Shown: positions 25,588-34,760 of the stretch, piece by piece
How positions within the stretch are numbered: position 1 is the stretch's first letter
How the letters are laid out: each line of letters begins with the position of its first letter
DNA from: Haloactinospora alba
GTDB taxonomy: Bacteria > Actinomycetota > Actinomycetes > Streptosporangiales > Streptosporangiaceae
DNA: 64,000 nucleotides
Direction: 5' to 3'
NCBI RefSeq assembly: GCF_006717075.1
Contig: NZ_VFQC01000001.1
Span: forward strand, 1,845,501-1,909,500
Notes under the pieces: model-generated
Told to the model about the DNA's origin: nothing
Database searches by the model: none
Seen by the model: only the letters and a program-made list of their open reading frames with translations
Position numbers and translations under genes: made by a program

Positions 25588-26130
25588 TCAGCGCCGTGGT
25601 TTGGTCAGCAGAACCAATCGGAACTTGCCGATCTGGACCTCGTCCCCGCCACCAAGTTCCACTTCGTCTATACGCTCCCGGTTGACATAGGTGCCGTTCA
25701 AGCTACCGACATCGCGTACGCCGAACCCATCGCCGCGCCGGAAGAACTCGACATGACGCCGGGACACGGTCACATCGTCGAGGAAGATGTCGCTGTTGGG
25801 ATGACGCCCCACGGTCGTGACGTCGCTGTCCAGCAGGAAACGGCTGCCGGCGTTAGGGCCGCGCTTGACCACCAGCAGCGCTGTCCCGGAGGGAAGGGCG
25901 TCAACGTTGGTGGAATCAGGGGCGACGTCGTCACCGGACTCGGTCTCGGCCTCCAGAGCCTGGATCCCCGAGATGGATATGGTGGACGTCGTCTCACCAA
26001 CGGACTCACGGCGCTCCCCCGATTGGGGGGCTTGCTGCGCGTCACTGCGGAGAGGGGTACCACAGTTGGAGCAGAAACGGGCACCATCCGCAACGGCGTG
26101 ACCGCACTGCGTGCAGTAAACGCTCGACAT
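25588..26130 (-). CDS. garA: FHA-domain regulator GarA-like, with zinc ribbon
   Basis: A 180-residue phospho-dependent regulator. The N-terminus has a Cys4 zinc ribbon (Cys6, 9, 20, 23), which mycobacterial GarA lacks as far as I recall. It is followed by the phospho-acceptor motif GETTSTISIS (Thr47/Thr48) that Ser/Thr kinases modify in GarA, then an FHA domain (about 85-180) with VGRHPNSDIFLDD, SRRHVEFF and SLNGTYVN intact. In mycobacteria and corynebacteria GarA/OdhI inhibits 2-oxoglutarate dehydrogenase and glutamate dehydrogenase until phosphorylated. The ATG at 26130 has AGGAGG 12 nt upstream. Confidence 0.9.
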   Translation of the reverse strand: MSSVYCTQCGHAVADGARFCSNCGTPLRSDAQQAPQSGERRESVGETTSTISISGIQALEAETESGDDVAPDSTNVDALPSGTALLVVKRGPNAGSRFLLDSDVTTVGRHPNSDIFLDDVTVSRRHVEFFRRGDGFGVRDVGSLNGTYVNRERIDEVELGGGDEVQIGKFRLVLLTKPRR

Positions 26131-29786: not shown

Positions 29787-30554
29787 TCAATGCGGGGATC
29801 CGGCTCCCTTTCTGCCGCCGGAGGTTGGACCTGCGTCATCGGAACGCCTCCCCACGGACATGTTGGCTTCGGAACCATGGCGTCCGGAGCCATGGCGTGA
29901 CTCGTCAACGTTGCCAGCGGTGTTCCACTGTTGCGGTGCGGTACCGTTTCTCACTGCGGAATTTGGGGCGGAGCCCCGACCCTGTCGCACCAGTCGGCTC
30001 GCATGCACCGCGTACAGCAGACCGGACCACCAGTAGATAGCCGTTCCCCAGATGGCGAAGGCCCAACCAACGGTTTGCGCAATATCTCCTGCTATACCGG
30101 AATAACCAGCGACAAAGAGCAGAGGGAAGGAGTACAGCAAACACAGGGTCGCAGTTTTGCCGGCGAAGTTCACCGGAAGAGCTCCGTACCCGTAATGCCG
30201 CAGAAGCGGCAGCCCCAGGGTGAGAAAAGCGTCACGCGCCACCAGGACCGCCATCAGCCACCAGGGGACGATCCCCCGGACCACCAGGCCCAGCAACGCG
30301 GCAAAGATGTACAAACGGTCGGCCATGGGATCGAGCAGCTCCCCTATCCTGCTGCTCTGGTTCCATAGGCGTGCGATCTTGCCGTCGAGCCAGTCCGACA
30401 GCCCGGCGAACGCCAACAGGCCGAGCGCCCACCAGTCCTCGCGTGGTACCAGGACCAACCACAGGAAGACGGGCACTCCGAGCAGACGGACCACGCTCAG
30501 CAGGTTCGGTACCGTCCACACGCGTCGGCCGACCGGTTCCGTACGGATCGCCAC
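29787..30554 (-). CDS. CDP-alcohol phosphatidyltransferase
   Basis: Integral membrane enzyme of phospholipid synthesis. The family motif is complete: DWLDGKIAR, then eight residues, G, ELLDPMADR, giving DG-AR-G-D-D spacing. About five hydrophobic segments lie in residues 15-200, and the last 60 residues are a hydrophilic Gly/Ser/Arg tail. The position resembles pgsA2 (Rv1822) upstream of the garA block in mycobacteria. The exact alcohol acceptor (glycerol phosphate or phosphatidylglycerol) cannot be decided from sequence. The GTG start has AGGAGG just upstream. Confidence 0.92.
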   Translation of the reverse strand: MAIRTEPVGRRVWTVPNLLSVVRLLGVPVFLWLVLVPREDWWALGLLAFAGLSDWLDGKIARLWNQSSRIGELLDPMADRLYIFAALLGLVVRGIVPWWLMAVLVARDAFLTLGLPLLRHYGYGALPVNFAGKTATLCLLYSFPLLFVAGYSGIAGDIAQTVGWAFAIWGTAIYWWSGLLYAVHASRLVRQGRGSAPNSAVRNGTAPQQWNTAGNVDESRHGSGRHGSEANMSVGRRSDDAGPTSGGRKGAGSPH

Positions 30555-30805: not shown

Positions 30806-31729
30806 TCATCCCGCACCCTGTTCGGGACCGTTGCTCACGCGGTGCCCCAGCGAACGCAGACGGGACTCCCCGGTGGGTTCCTCCAGCAGCGCCGGGAGCT
30901 CGACGACACCCTGCCGGGCGAAACACGCCCGGACCTGCTGCGGCACAGGAGTCCCTTCCCGCTCCGGAACCTGGTTGAGCACAACGGGGCCCAGCTGGAA
31001 ACCCGCTTCCGTGAGCTGCTTCGCGGCACGCCGCGTTTCGGAGAGAACCATCCGCCGCGGGAGTGTGACGAGGCGCACCCACGCGTCGGAACGCAGCCGG
31101 CTCGCGGTGCGTTCCAGCCTGTGACGACGCGCGTGCAACCGTTCCAGCAACGGGTCGTCCCCCTCGGACGACGGCCCGACAAGCCCCTCGGCGAACCGCT
31201 CCGCGCCAACGGCGCGTTCCCGTTGCCGCGCAAGCCCGTGTACCCACGGGGTGAGCAGCGCCGGCAGGTCCAGCATGCGCAGCAGATGGGCCGTGGGAGC
31301 GCTGTCCACGACAAGGCGGTCCCACTTTTCCGGAACCTGGTCCATCGCGTCGATCAGCACGTCGGTCAGGGCGGATTCGGTCATTCCCGGGCTGGAGGCC
31401 GCATGGGCAAGGTGACGGCGCACCGCGGGCATGATGTCCCGGGAGACCGCCGCACGGGCGTCCTCCGTGACACTGGCCACCCGTCGCTGCACGGCCGCCT
31501 CGGCGTCCGGTTCGACCGCCCACAGGTTGTCGGCCACACGCCTGGGGCGATCGCCGAGCCCCGTCTCCAGCGCGTCTCCGAGGGAGTGCGCCGGATCAGT
31601 CGACATCACGAGCGTACGCTCTCCCCCGTCGGCGAGGGTAACGGCGTGGGCGGCAGCGACAGTCGTCTTGCCCACCCCTCCTTTCCCGCCGACGAACACG
31701 ATGGCGGGGGAAGGCGGTCTCAACAGCAC
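30806..31729 (-). CDS. ArsA/Get3-family ATPase
   Basis: A 307-residue single-domain P-loop ATPase. It begins with the deviant Walker A of the ArsA/Get3/MinD class (VFVGGKGGVGKTT) and has MSTDPAHSLGDALE (switch I), VDSAPTAHLLRML (switch II with Walker B Asp), and a C-terminal VLNQVP. It lacks the second ATPase half and the arsenic-binding cysteines of ArsA. The GTG at 31729 overlaps the stop codon of the CC-terminal protein upstream, implying translational coupling; the open frame also extends to 31774. It is the third gene of the cstA operon. A role in handling a membrane client is inferred from Get3 relatives only. Confidence 0.9.
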   Translation of the reverse strand: MLLRPPSPAIVFVGGKGGVGKTTVAAAHAVTLADGGERTLVMSTDPAHSLGDALETGLGDRPRRVADNLWAVEPDAEAAVQRRVASVTEDARAAVSRDIMPAVRRHLAHAASSPGMTESALTDVLIDAMDQVPEKWDRLVVDSAPTAHLLRMLDLPALLTPWVHGLARQRERAVGAERFAEGLVGPSSEGDDPLLERLHARRHRLERTASRLRSDAWVRLVTLPRRMVLSETRRAAKQLTEAGFQLGPVVLNQVPEREGTPVPQQVRACFARQGVVELPALLEEPTGESRLRSLGHRVSNGPEQGAG

Positions 31730-31995
31730 ACCCCCGGGTCGCCGAACTCTTCCCTGCCCATGCGCTGGTGCCACTCGTGCAGGTCAGCCACCATGTAGGG
31801 AATCACGTCCAGCGTCTCGTAGGCCACTGGGTTGTCCACTCCCAGGGTTTCCAACAGCATGAGGGCACGGAGGGTGTCGTGCTGCGTCCGCGCTTCGCGG
31901 CGCAGCACGTGACGCCATCGCGCCTCGAACCACTGCTCGTGGAACTCTGTTACCTGACGCCAGGCGTTGCGCAGGCTCTCCCAGACCGTGGTCAC
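31720..31995 (-). CDS. Cory-CC-star protein, 91 aa
   Basis: A small soluble protein, Trp/Arg/His-rich (ESLRNAWRQVTEFHEQWFEA), with YMVADLHEWHQRMGREEFGD before a C-terminus of two adjacent cysteines (GVCC then stop). This matches the cory-CC-star family, small actinobacterial proteins named for that ending and found next to ArsA-type ATPases. Its GTG start overlaps the cstA stop (GTGA), and its stop overlaps the ATPase start. The CC tail could bind metal, form a disulfide or be lipidated; none of these is shown. Confidence 0.85.
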   Translation of the reverse strand: MTTVWESLRNAWRQVTEFHEQWFEARWRHVLRREARTQHDTLRALMLLETLGVDNPVAYETLDVIPYMVADLHEWHQRMGREEFGDPGVCC

Positions 31996-33731
31996 GTCTC
32001 TTCCGCCCTGGTGGGGTTCTCGGAGCCGACCGTGTCGTCCTGCTGCTGGCTGCTACGTGCCCCCCAGGCCCGGTACAGGGCGATCGCGGCCTCGACGATC
32101 AGCCACATGGCCAACGCGAAGATCACCACGTCCAGCGGGGCCAGGAAGAACATCTGGAGCGGCTCCCCGGAGGAGAGGAAGCCCGTCAGGTTCACGACCA
32201 GTGCCCAGGTGGTCATCACCACGAGGAACGCCAGTGGGACCAGGACCGCGACAGGGTTCCGGCTCTTCTTCGTGACCCACACCGCCACCACGGCCAGCGC
32301 GAGACCGGCGGTGAGCTGGTTGGTGGTTCCGAAGAGCTGCCAGAGCGTCCCGAACGCGAAATCACCGGGCACGAGAGCCAGAGCGAGGGGAACCGCCGCC
32401 GCCACGACCGTGGCGAGGGTAAGGTTGCGCGCCAGGGGCCTGATCCGGACGATGTCGGCGATCTCCTGGACGATGTAGCGCTGCAGCCGCAGACCGGTGT
32501 CCATCGTGGTCGCGGCGAAGCTGATAACCACGATGGCGGCGAAGACCGCACCGATACTGGTGGGGACCCCCAGGTTGGAGGCGAACTCGGCGACGCCGTT
32601 GACGAAGTTGGCCGTGGAGTTGTCGGACGCCGTGTCGAAGTCGCTGTACACGCTGTTCCAGCCGCCCGATGTCAGGGCGACTCCGGCGGTACAGGCCAGC
32701 AGCGAGCACAGCGCCAGGCTTCCCTCGCCCACAGCGCCGAGGTACCCGACGTAGCGGGCGTCGGTTTCCGAGTTGAGCTGCTTGGCCGTGGTTCCGGAGG
32801 AGACCAGGCTGTGGAATCCGGACACGGCGCCACAGGCGATGGTGACGAACAGGAGCGGGAACCAGGGTGGGGAGTCCGCGGGAACGTCGTTGACGGCGGG
32901 CGCCACGATCGTGTTCATCCCGACCACGACACCGACCAGGATCACCACCAGCGCGAGGAGCATCTGCTGTTGGTTGATGTAGTCCCGCGGCTGCAACAGC
33001 AGCCACACCGGAAGCCGGGAGGCGACGAACGCGTAGGCGAAGATCAGCACCACCCACACCGTGTGCGGCGTGACACCGACCGCTTCCGCCACCGGGTCCA
33101 TAGTGACCGGCATCTGCACGCCCACCGGGATCGAGGCGTAAACGATGAGCAACGCGACGATCGAGGGCAACAGGGCCGCGGTACGCCGACGGTAGACGTA
33201 CTGTCCCACTCCGATCGCCAGCGGGATCGTCACCAGGACCGGCAGTACCACGGCGGGGTTGCTCACGAACAGGTTGGCGATGACCACGGCGAACACCGCG
33301 TTCACCATTGTCAGCAGGAAGTAGATGATCAGCAGGAAAAGGGTGCGTGCCCGTGAGCTGATCACCTCGCTCGCCAGTGTGCCGATGCTCTTGGCCTTGT
33401 GCCGGACCGAGACCACGAGCGCACCGAAGTCATGCACCCCTGCGGCGAACACCGTACCGAGCACGATCCACAGCAGCGCCGGTCCCCAACCCCAGAAGAC
33501 AGCCACCGCAGGCCCCACGATGGGAGCAGCCCCCGCGATCGAGATGAAGTGGTGGCTGAAGACGATGTGGCGGTTCGTGGGGACGAAGTCGATTCCGTCC
33601 CTGTAGGCGTGGGCCGGGGTGACGAACTCAGGATCCAGCGCGTAGACGCGCCTGGCCAGATACGCTGAGTAATAACGGTAACCCAGTGCAAATATCGCCA
33701 GGACAGCGACCATAACGACGACTGCGGGCAT
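31992..33731 (-). CDS. cstA: Carbon starvation protein CstA (pyruvate/peptide transporter)
   Basis: A 579-residue membrane protein with about 15 hydrophobic segments. CstA landmarks: YALDPEFVTPAHAYRDGIDF, VPTNRHIVFSHHFISIAGAAPIVGP, GPALLWIVLGTVFAAGVHDF and FHSLVSSGTTAKQL. Family members import peptides or pyruvate during carbon limitation. It is shorter than E. coli CstA, as usual in actinobacteria. It leads a three-gene operon with 4-nt and 10-nt overlaps. A palindromic element (33788-33863) lies in its upstream region. Confidence 0.95.
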   Translation of the reverse strand: MPAVVVMVAVLAIFALGYRYYSAYLARRVYALDPEFVTPAHAYRDGIDFVPTNRHIVFSHHFISIAGAAPIVGPAVAVFWGWGPALLWIVLGTVFAAGVHDFGALVVSVRHKAKSIGTLASEVISSRARTLFLLIIYFLLTMVNAVFAVVIANLFVSNPAVVLPVLVTIPLAIGVGQYVYRRRTAALLPSIVALLIVYASIPVGVQMPVTMDPVAEAVGVTPHTVWVVLIFAYAFVASRLPVWLLLQPRDYINQQQMLLALVVILVGVVVGMNTIVAPAVNDVPADSPPWFPLLFVTIACGAVSGFHSLVSSGTTAKQLNSETDARYVGYLGAVGEGSLALCSLLACTAGVALTSGGWNSVYSDFDTASDNSTANFVNGVAEFASNLGVPTSIGAVFAAIVVISFAATTMDTGLRLQRYIVQEIADIVRIRPLARNLTLATVVAAAVPLALALVPGDFAFGTLWQLFGTTNQLTAGLALAVVAVWVTKKSRNPVAVLVPLAFLVVMTTWALVVNLTGFLSSGEPLQMFFLAPLDVVIFALAMWLIVEAAIALYRAWGARSSQQQDDTVGSENPTRAEET

Positions 33732-33863: not shown

Positions 33864-33953
33864 GCCGGGGGTCGGAGGCAACCGCCCAGGGCTGGTCGGA
33901 TGATCCGTTAAAGTTGGCCAGAAGTTAACATGCGGCATTCGTCACACAAAGGT

Positions 33954-34760
33954 ATGGCCTTGCAGGACATGGTCACGGTTTGGCAGCGATCCACGACGGC
34001 GGAGCTGTGCTGGGTCGCTCCCGACGGACCGACGGGGATCCCGGTGGTTCCACTGGTGTGGGGGGAGTTCCCGTGCGCGGCGCTTCCTCTCGCCCACCTG
34101 GACGCCGTCGACGGCATGTCCGGGCGCCGGGTCGTCTTCAGCGCCGGCGGCGGCGCCGGTGCCGGGACCACATCCGCGGTACTGGGCAGCGGCCCCGTCG
34201 AGGTTCGCTACGATCTCGCCGGGGAACAGTTCACCCGGGACCTGTTGGCGCAGGAGGTCGCCAAGCATCCCCCCACGCGGCTGCGCGCCGACAGTCTCAT
34301 GGCCCGTCGGGAGCACTGGTGGTGGGTCGCGCGTGTTCTGGTGATCCTCACCCGCCTGGACAGCCGGAACGAGGTCCGTCCGTGGAGGCCTGCCGAGGAC
34401 GCCCTGCTGGTGCGCCCCGGCAACCGGGAACCGCGCGTCGACGTGGTCACGGCGCCCGGGTGGGGCGCGGCCGGCCGGTCCGAGGAGCTCTGGCGTCGGG
34501 ACGGCCTCCCGCTGGCGGGCAACCACGAGCAGGCGTTCGCTTTCGGCCACCGCCACAGCCCGGACTTCGAACGGTGGGAACGCTGGTACCGCGCGGGGAG
34601 CCTGTCCCAAGAGACACTGACGGTGGCGGAGGCCGCGGGTAATCCCGGTGAGCAGCCGCAGCCGTTCGGTTTCCTCGGCCGGATCCGCAACCACTGGCGG
34701 GTTTCCCGTGCCTGCCGAACGGGAGTCGCCCGGGCCGAGGCACGGGGCGCACCACCGTGA
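33954..34760 (+). CDS. Hypothetical actinobacterial protein
   Basis: About 268 residues beginning MALQDMVTVWQRSTTAELCW. The first half (GIPVVPLVWGEFPCAALPL, VVFSAGGGAGAGTTSAVLGS, VEVRYD) looks like a small beta-barrel reminiscent of the pyridoxamine-phosphate-oxidase fold, but I cannot confirm this. The middle includes LMARREHWWWVARVLVILT. No signal or membrane segment is clear. The start is uncertain: ATGs at 33930, 33954 and 33969 are in frame and none has a well-placed ribosome site. The long, well-used frame supports a real gene. Confidence 0.7.
   Translation: MALQDMVTVWQRSTTAELCWVAPDGPTGIPVVPLVWGEFPCAALPLAHLDAVDGMSGRRVVFSAGGGAGAGTTSAVLGSGPVEVRYDLAGEQFTRDLLAQEVAKHPPTRLRADSLMARREHWWWVARVLVILTRLDSRNEVRPWRPAEDALLVRPGNREPRVDVVTAPGWGAAGRSEELWRRDGLPLAGNHEQAFAFGHRHSPDFERWERWYRAGSLSQETLTVAEAAGNPGEQPQPFGFLGRIRNHWRVSRACRTGVARAEARGAPP

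Follow-up and report, generated by a model that had tools for sequence, protein, structure and literature searches.

A CstA operon with a Cys-Cys-tailed protein and an ArsA/Get3-fold ATPase in Haloactinospora alba, and the apparent replacement of its small protein by YbdD elsewhere

Introduction

Why is a CstA-family transporter encoded in one operon with a small protein that ends in Cys-Cys and with an ATPase of the ArsA/Get3 fold? The question is raised by three minus-strand genes in a 64,000-nucleotide (nt) stretch of the Haloactinospora alba genome (contig NZ_VFQC01000001.1, positions 1,845,501 to 1,909,500), hereafter the window. An initial annotation, made from the letters alone, read the genes as cstA, a 91-amino-acid (aa) protein ending in Cys-Cys (the CC protein) and an ArsA/Get3-type ATPase without arsenic-site cysteines, noted overlaps of 4 and 10 nt, and proposed an undescribed functional unit in which the ATPase would serve CstA in a chaperone or activation system with the CC protein as adaptor. 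The sequence bears out the arrangement, and scores against PF02554, NF041419 and TIGR00345 bear out the three identities; the ATPase has a single cysteine and no CXXC motif.

The operon is, however, of a known kind. CstA-CstX-ArsA operons were reported by Castillo & Saier in 2010 (PMC2963123), and an NCBIfam model for the small protein, cory-CC-star (NF041419; CC_star below), exists; the description shown for it gives no function. In the available text of the 2010 paper, CstA occurs with an ArsA homologue in 26 cases, 24 of which also have the small gene cstX, and cstX is never found without CstA; the ATPases are described as single-domain proteins that lack the three ArsA cysteines, the trees as co-evolving, and the ATPase is proposed to energise CstA through CstX as a linker (PMC2963123). 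We found no experimental follow-up of this proposal in a non-exhaustive search of the open-licence literature. As set out below, the claim of a functional unit is upheld, and the CC protein could plausibly connect the transporter to the ATPase; the claim of novelty and the Get3 reading are not upheld.

E. coli offers a parallel. Its CstA is driven by the proton gradient (PMC7730263), and YbdD is needed for full pyruvate uptake, which falls to 20% of wild type on deletion of ybdD and to 13% on deletion of cstA, with no additivity (PMC5847655); a Desulfovibrio CstA mutant also has a pyruvate-specific phenotype (PMC10102598). E. coli YbdD ends in GARCC. Some members of its family (DUF466; Sel_put, PF04328) end in Cys-selenocysteine (Sec), and it has been suggested that the terminal Cys/Sec acts in redox chemistry (PMC4607533); single table rows in PMC9312934 and PMC13188914 concern the family as well. 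No paper linking CC_star to YbdD was found in the open-licence literature, subscription papers lying outside the search.

Results

CC_star and the YbdD family beside CstA

The association of CstA, the CC protein and the ATPase is far beyond chance, and CC_star and YbdD/Sel_put apparently replace each other, with only CC_star accompanied by the ATPase. These statements rest on three samples: 149 genomes of the window's phylum (sample 1), 199 of the phylum of a Natribacillus record (locus L129), which its title suggests is Bacillota (sample 2), and 274 of the class of a Salinisphaera record (L065), Gammaproteobacteria to judge by its title, in which CstA was scored beside the matches (sample 3). 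Sample 1 holds 14 genomes with a CC_star-profile match (11 over the cut-off; 12 with a CC tail), 36 with CstA and 13 with Sel_put. All 14 CC_star genomes and all 13 Sel_put genomes lie within the 36 CstA genomes, and none is common to both (hypergeometric P-values of 2e-10, 1e-9 and 2e-4, respectively; these and the value below ignore phylogeny); nine CstA genomes have neither. Sample 2 gave 15 CC_star genomes (2 over the cut-off), every one among the 97 with CstA (P of 1e-5), and adds nothing to the exclusion, since Sel_put occurs in none of its genomes. All 29 CC_star-positive genomes of these two samples therefore carry cstA, as the initial annotation led one to expect. Sample 3 contains six CC_star genomes, all over the cut-off, and 22 Sel_put genomes, with none in common, a zero that is weak alone because only about 0.5 common genome is expected by chance; CstA lies alongside in 6/6 CC_star and 20/22 Sel_put loci, and the ATPase in five of the six CC_star loci.

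In total, CC_star is found in 35 (19 over the cut-off) and Sel_put in 35 of 622 genomes, and no genome has both. CstA stands alongside at 32 of the 35 Sel_put loci and an ATPase of this type at none. The two kinds of locus also differ in their transporter. Among the Sel_put genomes of sample 1, 12 of 13 carry a long CstA, scoring 833 bits or more in a single stretch (the remaining one, G028, is fragmented), whereas the best CstA stretch in CC_star genomes scores at most 431 bits, mostly without profile positions 352-406. One genome (G096) has a long CstA and no Sel_put. The Sel_put tails read CC at 32 loci, CP at two and CPC at one; the three exceptions are YbdD-family proteins ending in RCP (two) or RCPC (one) rather than RCC (L052, L058, L228).

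The CC protein and the ATPase stay together where cstA is unlinked

Twelve CC proteins from sample 1 were aligned and led to 80 named loci, the best 80 of at least 501 relatives and leaning to close ones, which gives 92 loci and 86 nonredundant CC proteins, some of the 12 genome-sample loci apparently coinciding with named ones. Stretches from the genome samples extend only ~1.5 kb past the match. By record titles, the named loci include Actinomycetota, Gammaproteobacteria, Bacilli, Gemmatimonadetes, Vicinamibacteria, a Spirochaetaceae bacterium and others. CstA is on the stretch at 87 of the 92 loci and the ATPase at 91. Two of the five loci without CstA are contig ends (L010, L079). The other three (L092, L103, L112) truly lack an adjoining cstA, and each of their genomes has a short-type cstA elsewhere, with no CC gene on that stretch; frequent occurrence of the CC protein and ATPase without cstA, which the initial annotation had named as evidence against a unit, is thus not seen. 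In L092 and L103, both from Nocardiopsis, the CC gene and the ATPase gene stay in an operon from which cstA is gone; in front of the CC gene there is now a homologue, 52-53% identical, of the divergent gene found past cstA in the window, which means that cstA alone has left. The pair is likewise intact without adjoining cstA in L112 and in L182-L185 of sample 2, for which ~1.5 kb on each side is covered. Gene order varies as well, being CC, ATPase, CstA in L107 and L125, and L129 has a second cstA before the ATPase. Taken together, the mutual replacement of the two CC-tailed partners, of which one only comes with the ATPase, and the persistence of the CC-ATPase pair where cstA is unlinked suggest that the ATPase acts on the CC protein.

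We propose, at about even confidence, that the operon encodes a CstA importer with a dedicated CC-tailed partner that is serviced by the ATPase, the partner doing for a short CstA what YbdD does in E. coli. The importer would take up pyruvate or a similar small substrate, with transport itself probably driven by the proton gradient. The CC protein would be a small, soluble two-helix partner, presumably cytosolic, with the terminal Cys-Cys as its working end, and would make the short CstA fully active, as YbdD does for E. coli CstA. The ATPase, which has the ArsA/Get3 fold and is probably a homodimer, may spend ATP on loading the CC protein onto CstA, positioning it there or releasing it, and physical contacts among the three proteins would be expected. 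CC_star and YbdD may be alike in function.

The 2010 proposal casts the ATPase instead as a motor, whose ATP hydrolysis would energise CstA via the CC protein (CstX) as ArsA energises ArsB (PMC2963123). It has the published co-evolving trees behind it, and is consistent with the near-constancy of the ATPase at CC_star loci (91/92) and with the intact ATPase motifs of the relatives. E. coli CstA is proton-driven, however (PMC7730263), the Sel_put-type CstA loci have no such ATPase (0/35), and none of 78 related ATPases has a CXXC, 34 of them being without any cysteine. Furthermore, 82 of the 97 CstA genomes of sample 2, a count that includes distant CstA-like proteins of ~480 aa, are without a CC_star-profile match, which argues against the motor and against Get3-like delivery alike. 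We regard a motor as possible but unlikely.

An ATPase of the ArsA/Get3 fold without CXXC

The AlphaFold model of the window ATPase (predicted local distance difference test, pLDDT, 94) finds its best Protein Data Bank (PDB) match in archaeal Get3 (3zq6; template-modelling score, TM, 0.80), and among the relatives Walker A (GGKGGVGKT), SxD, switch II and a C-terminal N are kept. Switch II of the window ATPase reads TAH; a TGH string is present in 35 of 42 aligned ATPases. The region corresponding to the hydrophobic client-binding insert of Get3 has a mean Kyte-Doolittle (KD) hydropathy of -0.66 in the window protein; 42 aligned relatives have a median of -0.9 and reach up to -0.15, and two fragments of archaeal Get3 give -0.28 and -0.35. 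The zinc-binding CXXC at the dimer interface, described as a Get3 signature (PMC10248533), is absent from the window ATPase and from all 78 related ATPases.

This structural likeness is what speaks for the reading of the initial annotation, a chaperone of the Get3 type by which CstA would be inserted or assembled, the CC protein serving as adaptor. The signature motif is lacking, and CstA is a many-helix protein rather than a tail-anchored one, with 18 helices given for the E. coli proteins (PMC7730263). CstA without any CC_star match is common, E. coli CstA is proton-driven (PMC7730263), and the YbdD-type relatives do without such an ATPase at all 35 loci. We consider this the weakest of the options and very improbable.

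The gene overlaps, from which fixed stoichiometry had been deduced, are local rather than conserved, and fixed stoichiometry is therefore unsupported as a general feature: overlap of the open frames is impossible at 44 of 85 cstA-CC joints and at 28 of 90 CC-ATPase joints.

Conservation and variants of the CC protein

The CC protein is predicted to form two helices followed by a tail (pLDDT 84.6; predicted TM score, pTM, 0.48). Its predicted fold has no PDB match at E<=10, and the best hit of a PDB profile search (E of 0.045) was rejected as not credible. A G, a P, both H of an HxWH motif, a further G and both terminal C are invariant in the 86 nonredundant proteins, and W is kept in 85, with which a 47-sequence alignment agrees; conservation of HxWH in the 86 is partly circular, because one of the two patterns used to fetch the named loci contains it. 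HxxH and CC are also kept in 12/12 loci found by profile rather than pattern. A Sec variant of CC_star was sought and discarded, all 80 named loci ending in CC and the NF041419 matches listed containing no in-frame stop. A below-cut-off NF041419 match was also seen in the archaeon Haloferax volcanii, among 14 control genomes.

Several observations weigh against the proposal of an ATPase-serviced, YbdD-like partner. One locus (L065, again as L206) has cstA and the CC gene and no ATPase on its stretch. The window CstA scores 254.3 bits against NF011590 (pyruvate/proton symporter CstA), below the cut-off of 1188, and plasmid-borne cstA alone restored growth on pyruvate to an E. coli triple mutant of uncertain ybdD state (PMC7730263). 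No homology between the bodies of CC_star and Sel_put is detectable: hhalign, with 12 Sel_put sequences from the window's phylum only, gives a local probability of 4.4% (0.07% with -glob) that covers the last 18 columns only. The local score is 17.6; none of 60 column shuffles exceeds 15.2, and removal of CC lowers the score to 11.0. Common descent of CC_star and YbdD is thus not shown.

The variants of sample 2 and sample 1 weigh in the same direction. Only two of the 15 CC_star genomes of sample 2 have HxWH and CC; four have a DWCC tail, having lost HxWH, and nine are without CC. The DWCC proteins (L182-L185) accompany an ATPase, with CstA elsewhere in all four genomes, an observation that is not significant given that 97 of 199 genomes carry CstA, and in one of them (G322) that CstA is a distant CstA-like protein of ~480 aa. 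The nine CC-less genomes have a CstX-like gene by cstA. In seven of them the ATPase frame, the CstX-like gene or both occur twice, the ATPase frames being adjacent, and four of these seven (L186, L189, L190, L192) have a further CstX-like protein, ending in HAPHIH, ~5 kb from cstA; in L193 and L194, the remaining two of the nine, there is one CstX-like gene and one ATPase. CC-less tandem types linked to cstA also occur in sample 1 (G034, G037). Since DWCC and CC-less variants exist, the CC tail is a feature of the main branch and not of the whole superfamily.

The tandem variant combines cstA with CstX-like genes that lack CC and with a pair of adjacent ArsA-type ATPase frames; it is seen in L187, L188, L191, L195-L200 and L013-L017, and looks as if the partners had become heterodimers. 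In L185 (1444-3083), a gene for an ArsR-family regulator (PF01022, 66 bits) comes after the unlinked DWCC protein and ATPase.

The last of these loci, the His-rich tails of L186, L189, L190 and L192 and the joint conservation of HxxH and CC (86/86, partly circular, and 12/12) would suit thiol chemistry of the ArsD-ArsA kind, with the ATPase loading a metal- or redox-active carrier, the CC protein, which would act on CstA or another client; replacement of the last Cys by Sec in some YbdD-family proteins (PMC4607533) points the same way. The ATPases have no conserved Cys, however, and HxWH and CC do not always go together; HxWH with CC as a universal metal site was dismissed on account of the DWCC group. 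Redox coupling to the CstA cysteine (ACGAxSGFH) was likewise set aside: all 32 CstA compared have this Cys, whether a partner is present or not, and its occurrence in every CstA class compared makes it uninformative on the CC protein and no sign of a dedicated thiol partner. We judge a thiol carrier to be doubtful, with the odds well against it.

In five CstA of the window's phylum that have no partner, Gln replaces the second His of the motif HHF. As a partner-tracking residue this position was rejected, HHF being kept at 29 of 30 sample-2 CstA loci (the broken frame of L155 gave none); on none of the 30 stretches is there a CC_star or ATPase match, and three of these loci belong to genomes with CC_star elsewhere.

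The locus in Haloactinospora alba

The features of the window are collected in Table 1. The ATPase frame as mechanically called begins at 31774, and the GTG that gives the 10-nt overlap is likely the start; the protein also matches PF02374 (174.7 bits against a cut-off of 24.3). Profile searches of the genome place CstA matches at one place only and find no CC_star match besides the window protein, and Sel_put/YbdD (PF04328) is absent from the window proteins and from the whole genome. A phmmer search found no PDB relatives of the window CstA at E<=1. The operon is without arsR. Elsewhere in the window, a minus-strand gene at 25588-26130 encodes a zinc ribbon (PF13240) and an FHA domain (PF00498).

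Table 1. Features of the cstA operon and its flanks in the window.
Feature	Position	Strand	Details
cstA, short-type CstA transporter, 579 aa	31992..33731	minus	ATG start; PF02554 445.7 bits, cut-off 27
CC-terminal protein, cory-CC-star, 91 aa	31720..31995	minus	GTG start; tail Val-Cys-Cys; NF041419 107.4 bits, cut-off 80
Single-domain ArsA/Get3-fold ATPase, 307 aa	30806..31729	minus	GTG start at 31729 (likely); TIGR00345 180.1, cut-off 135
Overlap of cstA stop and CC-protein start, 4 nt	31992..31995	minus	read off the sequence
Overlap of CC-protein end and ATPase start, 10 nt	31720..31729	minus	read off the sequence
CDP-alcohol phosphatidyltransferase gene, flank	29787-30554	minus	PF01066
Divergent flanking gene beyond cstA, without Pfam match	33930-34760	plus	

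Discussion

A broader proposal, which we put forward tentatively and at somewhat less than even confidence, is that CstA importers share a working element, a terminal Cys-Cys or Cys-Sec carried by a small cytosolic protein, which is provided by two mutually exclusive families without detectable common descent. YbdD would accompany the long CstA with no ATPase, and CC_star the short CstA with an ArsA-fold ATPase that may replace or drive the step that YbdD performs unaided. The YbdD parallel makes the 2010 proposal of an ArsA-type ATPase acting with CstA testable, and such a test would bear on the CC/CU tail of a selenoprotein family that is said to have no functional information (PMC4607533).

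Among known systems, the Get3/TRC40 and ArsA ATPases resemble the window ATPase in fold, Walker A and switch motifs. The window protein differs from them in having no CXXC and a single domain, and it scores 104.9 bits against TIGR04291 (arsenical pump ArsA), below the cut-off of 650.

The operons of Castillo & Saier are closer, with the same gene set, a protein of ~90 aa and a single-domain ATPase of ~300-340 aa without conserved arsenic-site cysteines, and Idiomarina, Psychrobacter, Alcanivorax and Bacillus are common to their table and to the present relatives (PMC2963123). Their cluster 17 has 12 members, including a Thermobifida fusca ATPase of 301 aa, and all nine members present in SEED have CstA and CstX, the available text leaving it unsettled whether T. 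fusca is among the nine (PMC2963123). From position, size and shared genera we infer that CstX is cory-CC-star, the sequences of Castillo & Saier not being part of the comparison. The CstX of archaeal cluster 14 is described as having a single transmembrane segment (PMC2963123), whereas the window protein and its aligned relatives are without such a stretch (best 19-residue KD of 0.75 in the window protein, and none above 1.6 among 47, which include no archaeal members). Where Castillo & Saier propose that the ATPase energises CstA (PMC2963123), the present analysis favours servicing of the CC protein. With the cory-CC-star model itself the window protein shares the CC terminus and a score above the cut-off, and we see no difference.

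The E. coli CstA-YbdD system and its Sel_put/DUF466/KCU-star (PF04328) relatives differ from the CC_star operons in having no such ATPase on any of 35 stretches, in a long CstA in 12 of 13 genomes, and in sharing none of 622 genomes with CC_star. The two arrangements are alike in placing a small protein beside cstA, mostly with a terminal CC (32/35 loci), whose last 18 columns resemble those of CC_star.

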